Numbered from the stretch's first letter, positions 15,997 to 54,560 are shown. The stretch is DNA of 64,000 nucleotides from Pantoea sp. Ep11b (GCF_040783975.1 NZ_CP160631.1:3782001-3846000), one strand, 5' to 3'. A program made the numbers and translations. The notes: generated by a model from the sequence alone, not told the origin.

Positions 15997-16375
<379 letters not shown>

Positions 16376-22696: not shown

Positions 22697-24607
22697 TCAG
22701 GGGCGGCTCAGACAATCCATTGCGACCGCCCTGAAGCTGCTGAAATCGGTGCAGTCCCGCAGGCGGGTCATCGCCCTTTCACGCAGAAACGTCACAAACA
22801 GATCGTAGATCGCCATCGCCTCTTCATACTCACTTTTGCTGATCGCCAGCAGGAAAATCACATAGGCGGTGTCGTCGCCCCAGGCGATCCCCTGCGGGGC
22901 CAGCACCGTGCAGACCACGGTTTTCTTTGCCAGCAGCCCCAGCGAGTGCGGCAGCGCAATGCCTTCGCCGAGCATGGTGCTGACAATCGCCTCACGCTCC
23001 TCCACCGACGGACAGAACGCCGCATCCACGAATCCCTCCGCCTCCAGCTGGTCGCACAGCTGGCGAAACAGCGCAGAGCGGGTCATGGGTCGATCAACAA
23101 TATGGAAATGCTGAGCATCAAAAAATTTCGCCAGCATATAGGGACGGGTGCGATCGACCAGCACCAGTTTGCCAATCTGCTCCAGTTGAAAACCGGTGGG
23201 AAACGGCGACATGACCACCACCGGCTTCTCTTTTTCGCTGAGCCGGATGGTCGAGATCACAAAATCCTCTTCGATGCGGCTGCGCGCCTCATATTCACGC
23301 TGTGACAGCCGTGCCGTGACCTGCAGCTGCGGATAGCGGCGCAGCAGCATCGCCTCGATCATCCGCAGCGTGGAGTTGCCGCTGTCGCACACCAGCAGCA
23401 CCTGCGGATGGCGCTGATAGCCGACATCATAGTGGCGCTCCAGCCCGACACCGATGTGCAGCACCAGAAAGCCAATCTCATTCTCGCTGATCACATAAGG
23501 GGTATATTTCCCCCAGCTGGTTACCGCCGCCAGAGTGACATCATAGGCCATCGGGTAGTGCTGCTTGATGTTACTGAGCAGCGGATTGGGAATGTGAATC
23601 TGATAGCGTACCCGGGTAATCATGGTCTTGATGTGGGTAAGCAGATCGGCACGCAGCTGCTGGTCGTTCTGCAGATTGAAGTTGTAGTGGGTGTTGATAA
23701 AGCTGAGCAGATAATCCACCAGCGCATCGCCATCATCTGCGTTGATCGCGCTGGGGGCCACCGCCTGAATCCGCCGCGCCGCAATGTTAATCCGCAGCCA
23801 GTGCTCTTCGGCCGGGGAGATCGGTTTACTGACCAGCGGTCGCATCAGCGTGATCAGCTGATGTGCGGCTTCACGCTCCTCATCGCCAATCTCTTCGGCA
23901 CCCGGATCGTTAAGCGGATAGCCTTCGCTGATACGCCGCACCGCTACGGCGCAGTAGATCCGCAGGTAGCGCTCCCCCTCATCACTGAGCCGGATGTTAT
24001 GCCGGGCGAAACAGCGCTGCAGCAGCGGGCGCAGCGTCTCCAGTATGCCGCTGTTCAGCGCCTCGATGGTCAGCAGCGGGCTCTCCGGCTGCACCTGATC
24101 GATTTGCCACAGCAGGTCGGTCAGACAGGTGCGGATCGCCACTTCGCTGCCAAACAGCTTCATGCCGTAATGCGGCTTGCTCTCGATCGTCAGGTGATAG
24201 CGCCCCAGCCATTCGCGCACTTCGGCCATATCATTCTGCAGGGTGGCGCGGCTGACAAACCACTCTTCGGCCAGCTCCTCCAGCTTCAGCGAATAGGCGG
24301 CGGTGAGAAAGCGGGTCAGCAGATAACGGACCCGATCCGGTGCGGTTCGCGGCACCCGCAGCGGCGACGCACTGTGCTGTTGCAGATGCTGAAAACGCTG
24401 CGCATCCTCAATCTTCAGCTGATAGCCCGCGCCGCGATTCAGGATAAACTGCGCGCCATGCTCTGCCAGCAGCGCATTCAGCGCCGTAATGTCGGTGCGC
24501 ACGGTTCGTGTCGAGACCGCAAAGCGCCGCGCCAGCTCATCCTGAGGCAGCGTTTCGTTTTGCAGGGCATCGAACAGTTGCGCAAGGCGCTGATTGGGAA
24601 ATCTCAC
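22697..24607 (-). CDS. PRD/EIIB/EIIA-containing transcriptional regulator of the cassette (MtlR/LicR/BglG type)
   Basis: A 636-residue PTS-sensing regulator starting at GTG 24607. Order of domains: HTH_11-like DNA-binding domain (1-60), second helix-turn-helix of Mga/HTH type (about 95-150), PRD1 (about 175-285), PRD2 (about 295-395), an EIIB-like domain (401-490) with Cys407 in LLVCDSGNST, and a fructose/mannitol-type EIIA domain (about 500-636) with the active-site His554 in ALPHS. PRD2 keeps both His (H325 in LLTHIK, H384 in LVLHIG). In PRD1 the matching positions read Cys219 (IYCAV) and Asn274 (RINIAA). HTH at the front indicates a DNA-binding activator, not an RNA antiterminator. It is the last cassette gene, 105 bp after the aldolase. 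Confidence 0.85.
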   Translation of the reverse strand: MRFPNQRLAQLFDALQNETLPQDELARRFAVSTRTVRTDITALNALLAEHGAQFILNRGAGYQLKIEDAQRFQHLQQHSASPLRVPRTAPDRVRYLLTRFLTAAYSLKLEELAEEWFVSRATLQNDMAEVREWLGRYHLTIESKPHYGMKLFGSEVAIRTCLTDLLWQIDQVQPESPLLTIEALNSGILETLRPLLQRCFARHNIRLSDEGERYLRIYCAVAVRRISEGYPLNDPGAEEIGDEEREAAHQLITLMRPLVSKPISPAEEHWLRINIAARRIQAVAPSAINADDGDALVDYLLSFINTHYNFNLQNDQQLRADLLTHIKTMITRVRYQIHIPNPLLSNIKQHYPMAYDVTLAAVTSWGKYTPYVISENEIGFLVLHIGVGLERHYDVGYQRHPQVLLVCDSGNSTLRMIEAMLLRRYPQLQVTARLSQREYEARSRIEEDFVISTIRLSEKEKPVVVMSPFPTGFQLEQIGKLVLVDRTRPYMLAKFFDAQHFHIVDRPMTRSALFRQLCDQLEAEGFVDAAFCPSVEEREAIVSTMLGEGIALPHSLGLLAKKTVVCTVLAPQGIAWGDDTAYVIFLLAISKSEYEEAMAIYDLFVTFLRERAMTRLRDCTDFSSFRAVAMDCLSRP

Positions 24608-24633
24608 AAGCGTTACCTGTTAGCAGACAAAAG

Positions 24634-24642
24634 GTGGAAATC
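24634..24642. promoter_or_regulatory. Possible regulator-binding half-site upstream of the regulator gene
   Basis: GTGGAAATC lies in the 105-bp gap before the regulator gene. The same 9-mer, in the same orientation relative to the downstream gene, is the right arm of an inverted repeat upstream of the cassette's first gene (30372-30380). A chance match is possible; this is a candidate autoregulatory element only. Confidence 0.25.
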
Positions 24643-24712
24643 AGCCTACGGCGATCGTCGCGCAACGTCCATGCTGCGCGATCGTGCCGGGGCGGTTCGA
24701 TCGTATCGATCC

Positions 24713-25453
24713 TCAGGCCAGCAATGTTTTAGAGATGGCCAGCAGCTGCCGCACATCCTCCACGCGCGTCTCGCCACTGGCCTGGTCGATGATCGAACTA
24801 TAAACGTGCGGGATCACTTTACTGACGCCGGACTCCAGCGCAATACGGACGATCTCACCGAAGTTTTCCAGATCGATGCCGCCGGTCGGCTCCAGCCAGA
24901 AATCCTGCTTTGCGCACGCCTCCGCCACGGCGCGATACTCCGCCACCGCCTGCAGCCCGCCCATCGGAAAATATTTCACCGAGCTGCCGCCCATATCCTG
25001 CAGCATCGCGATGGCGGTTTCGACCGGTACGATCCCGTCCCGCTGTTTTGCGCTGCGTGGCCCGGTGGAAATTTTTACCCGACCCGGCGTGCCGGTCGGT
25101 GAAATCAGGCCGTTCACCACCGTCTGCGACTGGCCCAGCAGGGCGCGGCTGGTGGCGACGCCGGTAAAGACCTGGTTTACATGCTGCGGTTGCAGCACCG
25201 CCGCGATCTCACTCACCATCTGTGACTGATTAGGATCGCCCGCGCCCAGCCCGATCGAGAGCGCGTTGTCGATCAGCGCGGCATACTCGCGCATATCGGC
25301 GATCGCGGCCGCGTTGCTGGCGTAGTTTTTCGACAGTACGCCCACCAGCACATGCCCTTCTGCCGCCTGCCAGATGGCGTGCGCATTCTCTTTTGATCCT
25401 GCCAGCACATTCAGGCAGAGACGATCCTGATAAAAATGGGGGGTCAGCGTCAT
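24713..25453 (-). CDS. KDGP aldolase family protein (DgaF/EF_0839 type)
   Basis: A 246-residue class I aldolase-like TIM-barrel protein. Lys160 in GGSSVKYFPMGG corresponds to the Schiff-base Lys of KDPG aldolase (KFFP motif), and LEPTGGID at about 188-195 matches the conserved phosphate/carboxylate loop. In Salmonella DgaF cleaves 2-keto-3-deoxygluconate-6-phosphate to pyruvate and glyceraldehyde-3-phosphate; the same reaction is likely here. The start overlaps the stop of the PLP-lyase gene by 4 bp, so the two final enzymes are coupled. Confidence 0.82.
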   Translation of the reverse strand: MTLTPHFYQDRLCLNVLAGSKENAHAIWQAAEGHVLVGVLSKNYASNAAAIADMREYAALIDNALSIGLGAGDPNQSQMVSEIAAVLQPQHVNQVFTGVATSRALLGQSQTVVNGLISPTGTPGRVKISTGPRSAKQRDGIVPVETAIAMLQDMGGSSVKYFPMGGLQAVAEYRAVAEACAKQDFWLEPTGGIDLENFGEIVRIALESGVSKVIPHVYSSIIDQASGETRVEDVRQLLAISKTLLA

Positions 25454-26571
25454 GCGTGGTTTTCTCCGTTTAACAGCGCCTGGATGCGGGTAAAGATGGT
25501 ATTCAGCTGATCGGCGCTGACGCTGCGGACGTCCGCTTCGATGATCCCTTCGTTGGCTTTGTAGCCGCGGAAGTAGATCGCCACGTCGCCCTTTTTCAGC
25601 GCCTGCACCAGATCGCCGGTGCGGTGCGGGATCGCGGCTTCATCGAAGGCGATCTCCGTGCGGGCGATATCGCGCCCGGCCCCGTCCCACACCACTCGGG
25701 CCGTCACGCCGTGCAGGCTGTTGAGCTGCTCAATAAACGGCGTCATTTTTTCCACCATCTGCGCGCCGCTGATCTTCGGCTGCGTCAGATAGCTTTCGAT
25801 GGCCTGGGTCAGCCCCAGAATGCCCTCTTTGCCGACTTTCATCGCCCGGCCAATACCGTTGCTCTGACGCTTCACCCATTCGACATACTGATGCCTGCCG
25901 ATCACCAGTCCGCTGGTCGGCCCTTCGATCGCTTTGGCACCGCTATAGATCACCAGATCCGCGCCCGCCGCGTAGTAGCAGTACAGATCCTCTTCTGCGG
26001 CAGCATCGACGATCAATGGCACGCCGTGCTCGCGCGCTACGGCGGCAGCCTGCGCCACATCAAGATGGCTCTTCTGCACGCAGTGGTGCGATTTTACATA
26101 GAGGATGGCTGCGGTCTGTGGTGTGATCGCCGCGGCGAGCTGAGCGGCTGAGCATTCGTTGCTGTAGCCTGCCTCTACCAGCACTCCGCCGCCCAGCGCC
26201 ACCATACTTCCCACCGGCGCGCCATAGTTCACGTTGTGCCCTTTCGGCACCACAATCTGATGCGGAACGGTCAGCGGCGCAGCATGCAGATTATCCAGCA
26301 GCCAGTCGTTATCTTTGACAATCACCGCCGCCACGCTCTGGGCGATACCGGCCGAGGCGCAGGAGACCACCAGCGCGTTCTCCACCTTCAGCAGATCGGC
26401 GATATGGGCGCCCGTCTTATCCACCAGATCGTTCATTTCGAAGTAGTGATCGAGGCCATATTTCACCGTGTCGATTACCTCACTCGACGGCGTGGAGACA
26501 CCGAGGATCGTCATACGGCCAGAGGCGTTAATCACCGGCTTCAGGCCATACTTTTCATAAACCGAATTCAT
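25450..26571 (-). CDS. DgaE/SelA-like PLP-dependent ammonia-lyase (D-glucosaminate-6-phosphate ammonia-lyase type)
   Basis: A 373-residue fold-type I PLP enzyme of the SelA/DgaE group. INASGRMTILGVS opens the protein; Asp189 (IVDAAAEED) should contact the PLP nitrogen and Lys213 (SGAKAIEGP) is the expected cofactor Lys. Salmonella DgaE removes ammonia from D-glucosaminate-6-phosphate to give the 2-keto-3-deoxy sugar acid phosphate. The start at 26571 has GAAGGAG seven bases upstream; an earlier in-frame start would enlarge the overlap. As chosen, the gene overlaps the amidohydrolase by 17 bp. The exact substrate is inferred from family only. Confidence 0.82.
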   Translation of the reverse strand: MNSVYEKYGLKPVINASGRMTILGVSTPSSEVIDTVKYGLDHYFEMNDLVDKTGAHIADLLKVENALVVSCASAGIAQSVAAVIVKDNDWLLDNLHAAPLTVPHQIVVPKGHNVNYGAPVGSMVALGGGVLVEAGYSNECSAAQLAAAITPQTAAILYVKSHHCVQKSHLDVAQAAAVAREHGVPLIVDAAAEEDLYCYYAAGADLVIYSGAKAIEGPTSGLVIGRHQYVEWVKRQSNGIGRAMKVGKEGILGLTQAIESYLTQPKISGAQMVEKMTPFIEQLNSLHGVTARVVWDGAGRDIARTEIAFDEAAIPHRTGDLVQALKKGDVAIYFRGYKANEGIIEADVRSVSADQLNTIFTRIQALLNGENHA

Positions 26572-27685
26572 GCGCGGCTCCTTCTTCAGTCGCAAACCAC
26601 TCTCCGGCGACCACGGCCGCCAGCGGGATCAGATGTTTGTCACCGGCCACCTGTTCACCTTCTGAATCGATGAAGGGCCGGATCGCCTGGTTAACGCTAA
26701 ATACCGTCAGATCGGCGTCATAACCCACTTTCAGCTGGCCTTTACGCTGCAGGTGAAGTCCTGCGGCCGCCCTGACCGTGACGCAGTCGATGACCTGCGG
26801 CAGCGTCATGCCAACGCTGAAAAACTTCGACATGACATGCGCCAGACTGTGCACCGGCCCGGCCATGCGATTGCGGCAGTAGATGTCTGAGCTGATGGTG
26901 TCGGGCAGAATGCCCTGCGCGATCGCCGTCCGGGCGACCTCAAAGCTGAAACTGGCGCTGCCGTGACCGACATCAAGCCGGACACCGCGCGCAATGGCCT
27001 GCTTTACCGCCACTTTCAGTTCGCCCTGCGGTGTCAGAATGCGGTTGGGCTTGCCGTTAAAGCAGTGAGTAATGATGTCGCCGGTGGTGAGCAGATCCAC
27101 AATCTGGTCGAGATCGGGCGGATTGTTACCAATATGCACCATCAGCGGCAGCCCGCCGCTCTCCTGCTGGATCGCTTTGGCCTTTATCAGCGGCTGCACG
27201 CCATTTTTACCGACCACGCTACTGCTGATACGCGCCTTGAGGCCGACAATAAAATCAGGCAGCCGTGTCACCGCCTGCTGCACCGCCTCGCCATCGATCT
27301 GCGTCATATCGGCCAGCTCGTTCTGGGTGACGATGCCGGTACGGGCGATATTGATCAGCGCATAGACCTGCGTCGTGGCCGTGCGCGTCAGCCGGTAAAA
27401 GTCATCAATGTGATCTGCGCCGGTGCTGCCTGCATCGACGACCGTCGTGACGCCGTGCGCCACGCCAATCGCATCCGCCTCATCATGGTAAATCGGGGAT
27501 TTGGGATAACAGTGAACATGGGAGTCGATCCAGCCCGCGCTGAGATAGAAGCGGCCCGCCAGGTTGCGCTCGCGGCGGGCGCGGCCCTGCACATGGCCTA
27601 TCGCCGCGATGCGGCCATCCTGTAGCGCAATATCGACCACCTGCTCATCGCAGAGGCGCGCGGCGCGGATAATTAAATCGTACAT
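26555..27685 (-). CDS. Amidohydrolase/deacetylase family metallohydrolase (EF_0837/AHA_3915 type)
   Basis: A 376-residue amidohydrolase-superfamily enzyme with the full binuclear metal set: H56 and H58 (DSHVH), K150 as likely carboxylated Lys (GLKAR), H184 (MVHIG), H207 (THCFN) and D267 (SSDIY). It has been annotated as dihydroorotase- or deacetylase-like in related cassettes. Given the ammonia-lyase and aldolase downstream, it probably removes an acyl group from, or opens a ring in, a 2-amino sugar acid. AAGGAG lies before the ATG at 27685. It overlaps the lyase gene by 17 bp. Confidence 0.83.
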   Translation of the reverse strand: MYDLIIRAARLCDEQVVDIALQDGRIAAIGHVQGRARRERNLAGRFYLSAGWIDSHVHCYPKSPIYHDEADAIGVAHGVTTVVDAGSTGADHIDDFYRLTRTATTQVYALINIARTGIVTQNELADMTQIDGEAVQQAVTRLPDFIVGLKARISSSVVGKNGVQPLIKAKAIQQESGGLPLMVHIGNNPPDLDQIVDLLTTGDIITHCFNGKPNRILTPQGELKVAVKQAIARGVRLDVGHGSASFSFEVARTAIAQGILPDTISSDIYCRNRMAGPVHSLAHVMSKFFSVGMTLPQVIDCVTVRAAAGLHLQRKGQLKVGYDADLTVFSVNQAIRPFIDSEGEQVAGDKHLIPLAAVVAGEWFATEEGAAHEFGL

Positions 27686-27728
27686 GGTTTCTCCTTAACG
27701 GCAGCCCGCTGCCGGGCTACCGGTGAGA

Positions 27729-28370
27729 TCAGAGCGCAATCGGGTAAATCGCACCCAGAATCATTGCGCCCAGAATCGCGCCGCCGGTAATCGGCTTGTG
27801 CCAGAGATAGAACAGCAGCGCGCCCAGCAGCGAACCCAGTCCAATCGGGATAGAGGCGCCCATCGCGGAGAGAATGATGAGCGGCCCCAGGAAGCGCCCG
27901 GAGGCGTTACCCGCGCCCATCATCACGTCAGCGCCGTAAGTCGAGTCGCTCTGATTGATGGTGAATTTACGTGCCAGAATTATCAGGTAGCCAATGGCCA
28001 GGCCGATCACCAGCCCGGTCGCCAGCGAGGCGGCGAAGTTTGCCACCGGAAAGATGATGCCTGCGCCCAGCAGCAGCGCCGGAACGCCCAGCCCGACACC
28101 GGTCTGAATCGCGCCGCCGATATCCAGGATGCCTACCAGCGAGCCTTCGATAATGCGGGCAAAGAGGAAGCTGGCCCCAAAGGCGGCGACCGCGCCATAG
28201 ACGCCGCTTTCCATGCCTGCGCGCAGCATCGAGACAAACGCCACTTCGTTAAACGCACCGATGCCGTAGAGGTAATACATGTGGGTTCCGGCAAAGACAC
28301 CCGAGGAGAGCAGGCCAACAAAGATCGGGAAAGACCAGTCTGCGTACCAGAAGCCTCTGTTTTCGTTCAT
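27729..28370 (-). CDS. DUF4310 family membrane protein
   Basis: A 213-residue very hydrophobic protein with about six transmembrane segments (around residues 13-35, 53-75, 83-105, 108-132, 155-185, 193-213) and glycine-rich helices (GLGVPALLLGAGIIFP; GLGSLLGALLFYLW). Pfam DUF4310; no established function. It starts 11 bp after the DUF4311 stop. Both small membrane proteins occur together in the cassette and are the best candidates for its permease. The spacing to the amidohydrolase is 43 bp, including a small hairpin at about 27703-27719. Confidence 0.82.
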   Translation of the reverse strand: MNENRGFWYADWSFPIFVGLLSSGVFAGTHMYYLYGIGAFNEVAFVSMLRAGMESGVYGAVAAFGASFLFARIIEGSLVGILDIGGAIQTGVGLGVPALLLGAGIIFPVANFAASLATGLVIGLAIGYLIILARKFTINQSDSTYGADVMMGAGNASGRFLGPLIILSAMGASIPIGLGSLLGALLFYLWHKPITGGAILGAMILGAIYPIAL

Positions 28371-28381
28371 CGCATCGCCCT

Positions 28382-29158
28382 CTATTTGCCGCTGACGGCG
28401 TTATGGATCAGGTCAAGCCAGCCAGGAATGCCGAGCTGGAATGACTGCAGCAGTTTCATGTCGAAACCCCGGAAGAAGCCGCTCAGCACAAACAGCAGCA
28501 CAATTGCGGTCATCATGACCCTGGTGACCCGGTTCCAGCCGCTCTCTTCCACGCCTTTACCGATCAGAATTCCCAGCACCAGGCCCGGCACGGCGTTGCC
28601 CATGATCAGCTGCGCCAGACCGCCAAAAATGGTGGCCCAGAAGCCCGACTTCCTGCCCGCGTCGATCGCCGCCAGCCAGAAGATGACCGGCATGACGGTG
28701 TTCACCAGCAGATTCGCGGCAGGCACCAGTACTTTAACCGCCGTGACCTGCAGCGCAGCCGGTACCGCCGAGGCGGTCGAGTTGAGGAAGGCAACCACGA
28801 TCATGCCGATGATGCCGCAGGCGATAGCCATTTTTTTCGGGTTGTGCAGCGTCTCCGCCACGTTACGATTCTTCACCATCAGCGCCGCCGCGCCCCAGTT
28901 CGGGATGATGCGGTGATCCACATCCTGCGTGAAGGAACCGGCTGCAACAGAAGATGCCCAGGCATTGAAAAAGAAGCCAAGACCAAAGGAGAAGTGGGAT
29001 GCCGGATCGCCTTCGCACGAGTTCAGCTCGCCCAGCGTTCGAAACGCGCCCATACCCTGGGTCGTCGGCGCGTGGAACATGCGCGCGGCGCCTGCACCCA
29101 CGCCGACGCCAACCAGCCCGCCAATGATCAACGACTTAAACAAAATGATTAAAAACAT
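28382..29158 (-). CDS. DUF4311 family membrane protein
   Basis: A 258-residue polytopic membrane protein (about six helices) of Pfam DUF4311. The first helix is very glycine-rich (IIGGLVGVGVGAGAARM). A polar conserved-looking stretch, LNSCEGDPASHFSFGLGFFF at about residues 45-64, contains Cys, Glu, Asp and His next to a hydrophobic hairpin and is a plausible substrate or ion site. Function unproven. It is preceded by 114 bp without a gene and a weak ribosome-binding site (AAGGTACAACAAC), unlike the tight packing elsewhere in the cassette. Confidence 0.82.
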   Translation of the reverse strand: MFLIILFKSLIIGGLVGVGVGAGAARMFHAPTTQGMGAFRTLGELNSCEGDPASHFSFGLGFFFNAWASSVAAGSFTQDVDHRIIPNWGAAALMVKNRNVAETLHNPKKMAIACGIIGMIVVAFLNSTASAVPAALQVTAVKVLVPAANLLVNTVMPVIFWLAAIDAGRKSGFWATIFGGLAQLIMGNAVPGLVLGILIGKGVEESGWNRVTRVMMTAIVLLFVLSGFFRGFDMKLLQSFQLGIPGWLDLIHNAVSGK

Positions 29159-29272
29159 GTTGTTGTACCTTATTGTCGTTTTTTGCCCGCCCGGCGTCAG
29201 CCGCCGCCTCGCGCTGCCCGCCGCACCGTCGCGACGGCAGAAATGTGGCAGAACGGCCCGATGCTGACAGGC

Positions 29273-29572
29273 TTATGATGTTGTCGTGAACACCACCTGC
29301 TCCGTGTCGAAAACGGTGACGCTGACGGTGATCTCCAGCGTGACGCTGAAGCGCCGGCGCTGACGCGCCAGAAAGAAGAAGAGAAACTTCTCGGTTCTGA
29401 CGCTCTCCTGCGCGCGCAGCACCCGGACATCCTGAGGCTCGATGCGCAGCAGGATTTTTTGCGTTGCGCGCAGAACCTGGTTCTGCACACGGCTCAGGGC
29501 ATCGGCAAAGGCTTGCGCTTTGGTGTCGCCTTTGCCGTCGACCGTCACCTGCGTCACGTAGTGTTCTTTCAT
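29273..29572 (-). CDS. DUF4312 family protein
   Basis: A 99-residue soluble alpha/beta protein of Pfam DUF4312. It starts MKEHYVTQVTVDGKG and has a basic, Phe-rich middle (RTEKFLFFFLARQRRRF) followed by two beta strands. No signal peptide or transmembrane helix. The ATG overlaps the SFCGS gene stop by 4 bp. Function unknown; the constant association with SFCGS, DUF4311 and DUF4310 suggests a cytoplasmic partner of the membrane components. Confidence 0.8.
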   Translation of the reverse strand: MKEHYVTQVTVDGKGDTKAQAFADALSRVQNQVLRATQKILLRIEPQDVRVLRAQESVRTEKFLFFFLARQRRRFSVTLEITVSVTVFDTEQVVFTTTS

Positions 29573-29931
29573 GATCCGCTGCCGTGCTTCCTGTTCCAGG
29601 CCTGCACCAGCCGCTCGCCTAACTCCTCCTTGTCCATAAAACCAAAACCCAGCACCGTGGCGCCTTCATTGATGGCAGTAACGCCCTCATCGACCGAGCG
29701 CATGCCATGTTTTGCTTTGTAACCATGTTTGTTCTGCGCGGTGATCGCGCCTGCACCGCCACTGCCGCAGAAAGAGATGCCAAAATCAGCGTTTTCAGCC
29801 TTCATCACATCACCCAGCTTCATGTCGGCCGCCACCCCCGGCACCACGATGGCCCGGCCACCCGCTTTTTCGATGCCTGCCGCCACTTTCTGCCCTTTAC
29901 CTAACCGATCGCCAATCACGACTGTGACCAT
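29569..29931 (-). CDS. Glycine-rich SFCGS family protein
   Basis: A 120-residue cytosolic protein of the Gly-rich SFCGS family. A Rossmann-like start (VTVVIGDRLGKGQKVAAGIE) is followed at residues 51-62 by GISFCGSGGAGA, in which Cys55 sits after a beta strand in a glycine loop. This resembles the phosphocysteine loop of some PTS EIIB proteins (C-G-x-G), although here it is mid-protein; the resemblance is my observation, not an established fact. The ATG at 29931 has GAGG nine bases upstream. It is 13 bp after the PRD gene and overlaps DUF4312. Confidence 0.82.
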   Translation of the reverse strand: MVTVVIGDRLGKGQKVAAGIEKAGGRAIVVPGVAADMKLGDVMKAENADFGISFCGSGGAGAITAQNKHGYKAKHGMRSVDEGVTAINEGATVLGFGFMDKEELGERLVQAWNRKHGSGS

Positions 29932-29944
29932 GTTCTGTTCCTCT

Positions 29945-30280
29945 TCAGTTGTTGGATCGCGCGACTTCAATATGGACTGACAGCAGCCACGCCTCTTCAC
30001 GGGGCAGATTGCCAAACAGCGCCACCACCTGCTGCGCCAGCACTAACGTCTCCGGCGGAATATCCTCAAACAGCTCCGCTTCCACATCCGGCAGCGGCTC
30101 CCCGCTCAGTGAGCGTGACGCCATGGCGGTGACATGGGACTGCAGCATCTGCTGCTGCACCGCATTGGGCTGAATGCCATGCTGCTGGTAAATCGCCTCA
30201 ATCTGCCTCATCACGCGCTCAGCCAGCGCCTGCACTTTCTCCGGTGGCGCTTCATACACCGGGACGCCGTTATTGCTCAC
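29945..30280 (-). CDS. Free-standing PRD domain protein, first gene of the cassette
   Basis: A 111-residue protein consisting essentially of a single PTS regulation domain. The two expected His are present: H49 in LQSHVTAMASR and H103 in LLSVHIEVA. There is no DNA- or RNA-binding domain, so it may be a phosphorylatable partner of the regulator or of the SFCGS/DUF4312 proteins. The start is GTG at 30280 with AGGAG eight bases upstream; a longer in-frame reading to 30334 lacks such a site. It heads the cassette, with a 295-bp control region upstream. Confidence 0.8.
   Translation of the reverse strand: MSNNGVPVYEAPPEKVQALAERVMRQIEAIYQQHGIQPNAVQQQMLQSHVTAMASRSLSGEPLPDVEAELFEDIPPETLVLAQQVVALFGNLPREEAWLLSVHIEVARSNN

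Positions 30281-53760: not shown

Positions 53761-54560
<800 letters not shown>

Follow-up and report, generated by a model that had tools for sequence, protein, structure and literature searches.

How might a bacterium supply phosphorylated sugar acid to a catabolic pathway from a cassette in which neither a known phosphotransferase permease nor a kinase is recognised? The question is raised by nine minus-strand genes at positions 22697-30280 of a 64,000-nucleotide stretch of the Pantoea sp. Ep11b genome (the window). In order, they encode a small PRD protein, the four products SFCGS, DUF4312, DUF4311 and DUF4310 (the quartet), an amidohydrolase, a DgaE-like lyase, a 2-keto-3-deoxy-gluconate-6-phosphate (KDGP) aldolase and an activator controlled by the phosphoenolpyruvate (PEP)-dependent phosphotransferase system (PTS). 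The reading that we favour, and regard as somewhat probable, is a PTS-regulated operon for an N-acyl-2-amino-2-deoxy-aldonate, in which the quartet acts as permease, the acid reaches the enzymes as 6-phosphate and breakdown ends in pyruvate and glyceraldehyde-3-phosphate. Gene content, residue conservation, module structure and the distribution of kinase genes were observed directly; from these we infer transport, the substrate, the order of deacylation and phosphorylation, and the quartet as phosphate source. The parts are as follows (aa, amino acids).

29945..30280, minus strand: small PRD-domain protein of the EF_0829/AHA_3910 family, 111 aa, GTG start at 30280; TIGR03582 115.3 bits, cut-off 69.35, scored on a longer open reading frame reaching 30334
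29569..29931, minus strand: SFCGS glycine-rich cytoplasmic protein, 120 aa, ATG at 29931; PF14272 198 bits, TIGR03577 217 bits, cut-off 141
29273..29572, minus strand: DUF4312 small cytoplasmic protein, 99 aa; PF14189 117 bits, TIGR03578 125 bits, cut-off 90
28382..29158, minus strand: DUF4311 membrane protein, 258 aa; PF14188 404 bits, TIGR03580 509 bits, cut-off 301
27729..28370, minus strand: DUF4310 membrane protein, 213 aa; PF14187 348 bits, TIGR03579 387 bits, cut-off 215
26555..27685, minus strand: amidohydrolase-superfamily deacetylase of the EF_0837 family, 376 aa; TIGR03583 546 bits, cut-off 432
25450..26571, minus strand: ammonia-lyase of the DgaE family, dependent on pyridoxal phosphate (PLP), 373 aa, ATG at 26571; TIGR01437 575 bits, cut-off 385; 7lc0 281 bits
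24713..25453, minus strand: DgaF-like KDGP aldolase, 246 aa; TIGR03581 395 bits, cut-off 222; NF047796 379.4 bits, cut-off 300; 3m0z 409 bits
22697..24607, minus strand: PTS-controlled activator, 636 aa, GTG at 24607; helix-turn-helix (HTH), Mga HTH, PRD and EIIA_2 by Pfam, with an EIIB-like Cys407 and with His554 in EIIA_2

Eight of the nine genes exceeded curated NCBIfam cut-offs (the EF_0829-EF_0839 set TIGR03577-TIGR03583 plus TIGR01437). In the same scoring the regulator exceeded none, and it was identified by Pfam. The nine identities given in a preliminary description, made from this DNA alone, were thereby borne out, as were its overlaps of 4-17 bp: SFCGS/DUF4312 and lyase/aldolase overlap by 4 bp and amidohydrolase/lyase by 17 bp. 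Gaps also exist, of 114 bp between DUF4312 and DUF4311 and of 105 bp between the aldolase and the regulator.

The enzymes and a proposed phosphorylated acid

The substrate would most likely be N-acetyl-D-glucosaminate or a close isomer, presented to the enzymes as its 6-phosphate. The amidohydrolase would strip the acyl group, yielding acetate and the amino sugar acid 6-phosphate; the lyase would then remove ammonia and water to give KDGP, which the aldolase is predicted to split into pyruvate and glyceraldehyde-3-phosphate.

His162 and His163 of the Salmonella lyase are close to its active site, with His163 as proton donor, and docking places the substrate phosphate near Arg301, Arg332 and Arg346 (PMC9529869; this and the other papers are cited from the accessible portions of their texts). 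Among 78 lyases, the window's and 77 from related loci, no sequence has lost any of the three arginines, His163 or the PLP lysine, and 76 keep His162. The window's enzyme has all six residues: His162, His163, Lys213, Arg301, Arg332 and Arg346, where Lys213 is presumably the number of the PLP lysine in the Salmonella enzyme. The aldolase passes the DgaF/DagF equivalog NF047796, and this, together with the kept lyase residues, suggests that the product is a 2-keto-3-deoxy-6-phospho sugar acid. The amidohydrolase has solved relatives (8wzy, 2ics, 2ogj) and is 45% identical to the Enterococcus faecalis protein. Enzyme families and active-site residues thus support the earlier proposal that an N-acylated 2-amino sugar acid is converted to pyruvate, a triose phosphate, ammonia and acid. 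That proposal left out phosphorylation, which is made central by the lyase arginines, the distribution of kinase genes and a PTS phosphocarrier gene in Bartonella (both described below).

The same enzymes could act on a different but chemically similar substrate, either a stereoisomeric 2-acylamino aldonate or an acyloxy acid; we consider this unlikely. It would fit the window lyase's miss of the DgaE equivalog NF047797 (370.8 bits against a cut-off of 600), which also counts against our own reading, and a lactonase gene in Klebsiella (see the last section) suggests a lactone precursor there. The biochemistry known to us for this amidohydrolase group is reportedly limited to esters of the acetyl-(R)-mandelate type. 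Opposed to it are the aldolase's score above the DagF equivalog cut-off and the retention by the lyase of its catalytic and phosphate residues.

Two characterised systems offer comparison. The Salmonella operon dgaABCDEF (PTS DgaABCD, DgaE lyase, DgaF aldolase; PMC9529869, in part) shares with the window the lyase and aldolase families, the kept active-site and phosphate residues and the operon layout, but it has EIIABCD where the window has SFCGS, DUF4312, DUF4311 and DUF4310, and the window adds a deacetylase. The ong pathway of Pseudoalteromonas (OngIT, OngB, OngC, KdgK), as far as PMC9537276 was accessible, follows the same logic: N-acetyl-D-glucosaminate is deacetylated and deaminated on the way to 2-keto-3-deoxygluconate (KDG)-6-phosphate. 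There, however, KdgK phosphorylates last, a sodium solute symporter handles uptake and OngB is of the D-aminoacylase type. In the window, the amidohydrolase belongs to another group, the lyase has a phosphate site and the cassette lacks a kinase gene. PpOngB gave only a 22-bit local match, and the cassette holds neither a symporter nor a kinase.

Related loci, modules and kinase genes

A scan of GTDB contigs, from which the best 80 of at least 542 confirmed stretches were kept, was combined with four records from a plasmid collection, among them two nearly identical plasmids of Bartonella, to give 84 related loci. The 80 stretches come mostly from Enterococcus, Lactococcus, lactobacilli and Bacillus relatives, with several proteobacterial genera; the sample leans to Firmicutes because the query was headed by an Enterococcus sequence. 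All nine genes occur in 63 of the 84 loci. A label is the best phmmer match anywhere in a locus, and the nine are not necessarily contiguous. DUF4310 and DUF4311 are present in all 84, SFCGS and DUF4312 in 82 each, the amidohydrolase in 80, the lyase in 78, the PRD protein in 77, the regulator in 76 and the aldolase in 74; contig ends account for some of the absences, and the SFCGS and PRD protein counts rest on Enterococcus reference sequences. The E. faecalis aldolase reference, with X at its stops, served only as a search query alongside the window's intact aldolase. Since 63 loci have all nine genes, chance is excluded as the source of the set. The related sets that the preliminary description mentioned in Enterococcus are borne out in E. 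faecalis, where the same genes are clustered.

The cassette consists of separable parts. Four loci (L044, L045, L047, L068) carry the quartet and regulator without nearby enzymes. In the genomes of the first three the aldolase lies elsewhere, in an operon with the lyase and amidohydrolase; these operons (L124, L125, L127) encode EIIC, a small protein, MupG, amidohydrolase, lyase, aldolase and PfkB. In the 1.7-Mb metagenome genome of L068 no aldolase match was found. Because three of the four quartet-only genomes keep aldolase, lyase and amidohydrolase in one operon, the suggestion that the enzymes belong to separate pathways is opposed.

In E. faecalis and its relatives both modules are joined. 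The E. faecalis locus has EIIC, MupG and PfkB, all three of which the window lacks; the aldolase of the E. faecalis record has a broken frame, in two pieces. Its EIIC belongs to the lactose/cellobiose family (TIGR00410 393 bits, cut-off 236; solved relative 3qnq), its MupG to the 6-phospho-N-acetylmuramidase family, and its PfkB protein is most like KDG kinases yet scores under their cut-offs. In our reading, the second module imports a beta-linked disaccharide with the amino sugar acid at its reducing end. Cleavage by the MupG module would leave the sugar acid unphosphorylated, and a kinase would therefore be needed. We take DUF871 to be the MupG family. In Lactiplantibacillus plantarum, genes for a PTS IIC, a DUF871 protein and a DgaE-family protein, with adjoining locus tags, are up in one expression table of PMC9019972 (seen in part).

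The kinase genes follow this division. Both lyase and aldolase are present in 73 of the 84 loci, the other 11 being dropped with either gene missing or cut by a contig end. PfkB was found in 15 of 18 loci with MupG against 2 of 55 without (Fisher p 7e-11; this and the following p values ignore phylogeny). Within Enterococcus the figures are 12 of 14 against 0 of 14 (p 6e-6), and within Lactococcus 3 of 4 against 0 of 2 (p 0.4). Exceptions, which weigh against our reading, run in both directions: MupG without PfkB in L043, L057 and L070 (the last stops inside the aldolase), and PfkB without MupG in L087 and L095. Further unlabelled genes of at least 80 aa lie inside the cassettes of six loci only. 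Four of these loci (L037, L057, L061 and L074) have MupG and one such gene each, of 90-94 aa; L090 has two, and L111, whose boundary is extended by another regulator match, has seven. A kinase signature scan was dropped as evidence, as it left PfkB genes that were already labelled unflagged. From the kept lyase phosphate site and this kinase rule it follows that in window-like cassettes the acid either comes in with its phosphate or receives it from an unlinked kinase.

The second of these outcomes corresponds to an ion-coupled permease: the quartet would bring in the acid without a phosphate, and the 6-phosphate would be made by a housekeeping sugar kinase whose gene lies elsewhere. No subunit matched an EII among the families listed, the Firmicutes cassette regulators displayed lack an EIIA motif, and the marine N-acetylglucosaminate pathway works with a sodium symporter and a KDG kinase (PMC9537276, accessible portion). 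Yet 53 of the 55 loci without MupG have no PfkB gene in the locus, while MupG loci mostly do, and release of unphosphorylated acid by MupG glycoside cleavage would match the PfkB found there. The phosphate site is kept in every lyase examined, and Bartonella carries an HPr-EI protein alongside the cassette. We regard an ion-coupled permease as credible but doubtful.

The quartet and the regulator

In the favoured reading DUF4310 and DUF4311 would form a membrane permease, with SFCGS and DUF4312 as its cytoplasmic subunits, and the quartet would functionally replace the mannose-type EIIABCD of the Salmonella dga operon. The earlier assignment of DUF4310 and DUF4311 as a permease agrees with gene position, the quartet standing in place of EIIA, EIIB, EIIC and EIID of a dga-type operon, but sequence comparison gave no convincing tie to a known transporter. 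One such dga-type operon (L126) was found in Vagococcus, in the genome of L045, and encodes a sigma-54-type PRD activator, EIIA-man, EIIB-sor, EIIC-sor, EIID, lyase and aldolase. Its order parallels the small-small-membrane-membrane-lyase-aldolase order of the window, where a deacetylase is inserted, and its sigma-54-type activator contrasts with the MtlR-like regulator of the window. The L045 genome thus holds three units: the dga-type operon, the quartet module and the MupG module. By this analogy, it is plausible that the quartet is a transporter.

The SFCGS protein of the window carries the motif SFCGSGGAG, and SFCGSGG is present in every SFCGS alignment row displayed. Of the 61 members scanned, 25 match the SFCGS family itself, 18 weakly match RpiB/LacAB (PF02502; best E 0.0017, 18.8 bits, under the gathering cut-off of 24.7) and 10 weakly match DUF2620 (PF10941, the family of E. 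coli YhfU; best E 0.0029). Pairwise profile comparison among SFCGS, RpiB and DUF2620 gave E values of 0.0057, 0.012 and 0.01, compared with 0.26-0.67 in six control pairs. The Cys-Gly loops of the three align, but their hhalign probabilities were low (6.5, 3.7 and 4.0%). The RpiB profile was built on 19 of 20 sequences, one of 19 residues (L149) being left out. At the level of sequence, the kinship of SFCGS to RpiB and DUF2620 is suggestive.

DUF2620 leads to the E. coli yhf operon (YhfU, YhfT, the PLP enzyme YhfS and Php), whose small Cys-Gly-loop protein is weakly like SFCGS. There, DUF2620 is grouped with the membrane protein YhfT, an enzyme dependent on PLP and a member of the phosphotriesterase family, a parallel architecture whose families were confirmed in L158. 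The yhf operon differs in having one membrane protein, and YhfT has no detectable similarity to DUF4310 or DUF4311; we know of no function for it. In each of four loci (L155-L158) a DUF2620 gene is followed by a gene for a YhfT-like membrane protein, 33-36% identical to that of L158, which Pfam assigns to YhfT.

For DUF4310 and DUF4311, several relationships were tried and rejected. An early alignment grouped the two as mutual paralogues, but profile comparison was negative (E 0.13, 0.13 and 0.11). A split YhfT was rejected because comparison showed no similarity (E 0.33 and 0.42). DUF2232 drew matches from 29 of the 58 proteins in the DUF4311/DUF4310 alignment, the best at E 0.00076; on a rerun three of four DUF4311 proteins matched at E 0.0099-0.1, over part of the hydrophobic C-terminal half and under the curated cut-off, and the match was judged probably compositional. 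The natural fusions P0034, P0067, P0094, P0095, P0252, P0265 and P0314 were aligned as found and are probably assembly frameshifts. One of them, P0095, a DUF4311-DUF4310 protein filed under the fungus Astraeus odoratus, is probably bacterial contamination. None of these comparisons convincingly ties the sequence of DUF4310 or DUF4311 to a known transporter.

The same lack of a convincing link would suit a membrane enzyme or signalling unit in place of a transporter. We consider this quite improbable: the two membrane proteins occupy the EIIC and EIID positions of an otherwise dga-like operon, and cassettes without MupG contain no further gene of at least 80 aa, save L090 and L111.

Transport by the quartet is, in our grading, likely; it may also phosphorylate the acid, which is the point of greatest interest. 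The quartet might represent a new PEP-dependent group translocator superfamily, unrelated in sequence to known EII permeases, with an RpiB-like SFCGS and its conserved cysteine as phosphate carrier and with YhfU/YhfT as a distant functional parallel. We put this forward as speculation that is rather unlikely to hold.

The regulator supplies the connection to the PTS. MtlR/LicR-type activators combine an HTH, a PRD with conserved histidines, an EIIB cysteine and an EIIA histidine, and the window protein fits this pattern. Among 75 aligned regulators, a few of them PRD regulators near but outside cassettes, the PRD histidines (His325 and His384 in the window) are kept in 75 and 73, and the cysteine of the EIIB-like motif (Cys407) in 65. 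The PRD/EIIB/EIIA architecture assigned earlier stands for PRD and EIIA_2, both found by Pfam, but its EIIB part rests on the conserved cysteine: at E 0.001 Pfam gave no EIIB match and one PRD only. His554 of the EIIA domain lies in an ALPH motif, which also occurs in the proteobacterial rows displayed. The activator, probably with the small PRD protein, would report the phosphorylation state of the system.

The plasmids of Bartonella sp. HY406 and HY761 (L033, L034) have a ptsP gene directly after the cassette regulator. In L033 it encodes an HPr-EI fusion with both active-site motifs, GLHARP and GGATSH. The plasmids are of 55 kb, from Bartonella of bat faeces, and type VI secretion genes adjoin the cassette.

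This HPr-EI could serve the regulator alone. If so, it and the PRD histidines would have no bearing on the quartet, which would be unconnected to PTS phosphorylation. The regulators do have conserved PRD histidines, an EIIB-like cysteine and, in the proteobacterial rows displayed, an EIIA histidine, and would need HPr and EI in a host possibly without a suitable pair. Such a restriction to the regulator would leave unexplained the cassettes that have neither MupG nor a kinase although their lyase keeps the phosphate site. It is an alternative that we take seriously without thinking it probable.

Several results weigh against a PTS-linked quartet fed with amino sugar acid. Pfam and NCBIfam scans of the window proteins matched no quartet subunit to a PTS EII family: neither mannose-family EIIA, EIIB, EIIC or EIID nor any recognisable EIIB, EIIC or EIID domain was found. 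Scans of 61 and 58 members at E up to 10 matched 39 and 32 families, and the 25 listed for each include no EII. Kinship of DUF4310 and DUF4311 to mannose-type IIC and IID was rejected, as profile comparison with two sequences each found nothing. DUF4312 has no conserved histidine or cysteine in the alignments displayed. The EIIA histidine column is histidine in just 21 of the 75 regulators, and because the Firmicutes cassette regulators displayed lack the EIIA motif, no EIIA-like partner is evident in those cassettes. The two Bartonella plasmids have identical proteins and hence count as one event. Oxidation of chitin by the host's own lytic polysaccharide monooxygenase (LPMO), tried as a substrate source, is unsupported, since DUF4311 is reported in 14 of 27 genomes with LPMO_10 and in 56 of 122 without (apparently the family sample described below), and the window's genome has no LPMO_10.

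Genomic setting, occurrence and meaning

The cassette is flanked by cybC and pmbA upstream in transcription and by a LysR regulator and pirin downstream. A 12-pair terminator-like hairpin lies 3' of cybC (30573-30545); the whole scan gave 9 such sites against 7.0 expected. Matches to the CRP-site palindrome in the window were no commoner than chance (20 against 23.6 expected), and the promoter scan gave one sigma-70-like match against 3.2 expected. In Klebsiella the cassette occupies the same site, after pmbA-cybC. In the Klebsiella locus the aldolase and regulator genes are separated by an extra lactonase-family gene (PF10282; L035:16504-17658), followed by a RelB/RelE-type pair. Elsewhere in the window, RNase P RNA (15997-16375) and an RpsF leader (54154-54239) lie on the minus strand.

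The window's genome, of 4.03 Mb, has a single DUF4310 gene, whose closest named relatives, in Pantoea and Mixta, are 93% identical. DUF4311 was found in 12 of 398 Pseudomonadota genomes, all 12 from the window's own family. Within that family 70 of the 149 genomes sampled are reported to carry it, a count that includes one broken copy (G420) and one weak, probably chance match (G496). The G420 gene, in several fragments with stop codons, is decaying. Twelve DUF4311 relatives are 63-69% identical to the Enterococcus sequence, and the family was also seen in Vibrio, Chromobacterium and Bartonella. A near-mode search of E. coli genomes gave no near match to the cassette. Weak DUF4311 matches in other genomes were dismissed as chance; the one inspected, a protein of 269 aa in L014, combines a glycine-rich membrane segment with an end that resembles a J-domain, and we take it to be DjlA-like.

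The gene families themselves were on record: the EF_0829-EF_0839/AHA_3910-3917 set comprises the same families, most of them catalogued as hypothetical equivalogs only. The claim of an undescribed system must be qualified to that extent, but in the openly licensed literature we found no paper on DUF4310, DUF4311, DUF4312, SFCGS, EF_0830 or EF_0837, and none that assigned the set a function. Individual genes do surface in the accessible parts of published studies. The promoter of EF_0839 or EF_2975 is urine-induced (PMC2912369), EF_0838 is among the proteins identified only in biofilm (PMC11135667), dgaF, named there with no locus number, is enriched in urinary isolates (PMC10746210), and dgaE and dgaF are listed as duplicated in E. 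faecalis (PMC7396535).

DUF4311 is widespread, yet no role has been assigned to the families of four of the nine gene products. If our reading is true, it would give context to the lyase and aldolase genes noted in E. faecalis fitness, biofilm and urine studies (PMC7701990, PMC11135667, PMC2912369 and PMC10746210, in the portions available) and would provide a function for DUF4310, DUF4311, DUF4312 and SFCGS. If confirmed, delivery of the phosphorylated amino sugar acid by a transporter outside the known PTS permeases would add a class to the PTS.

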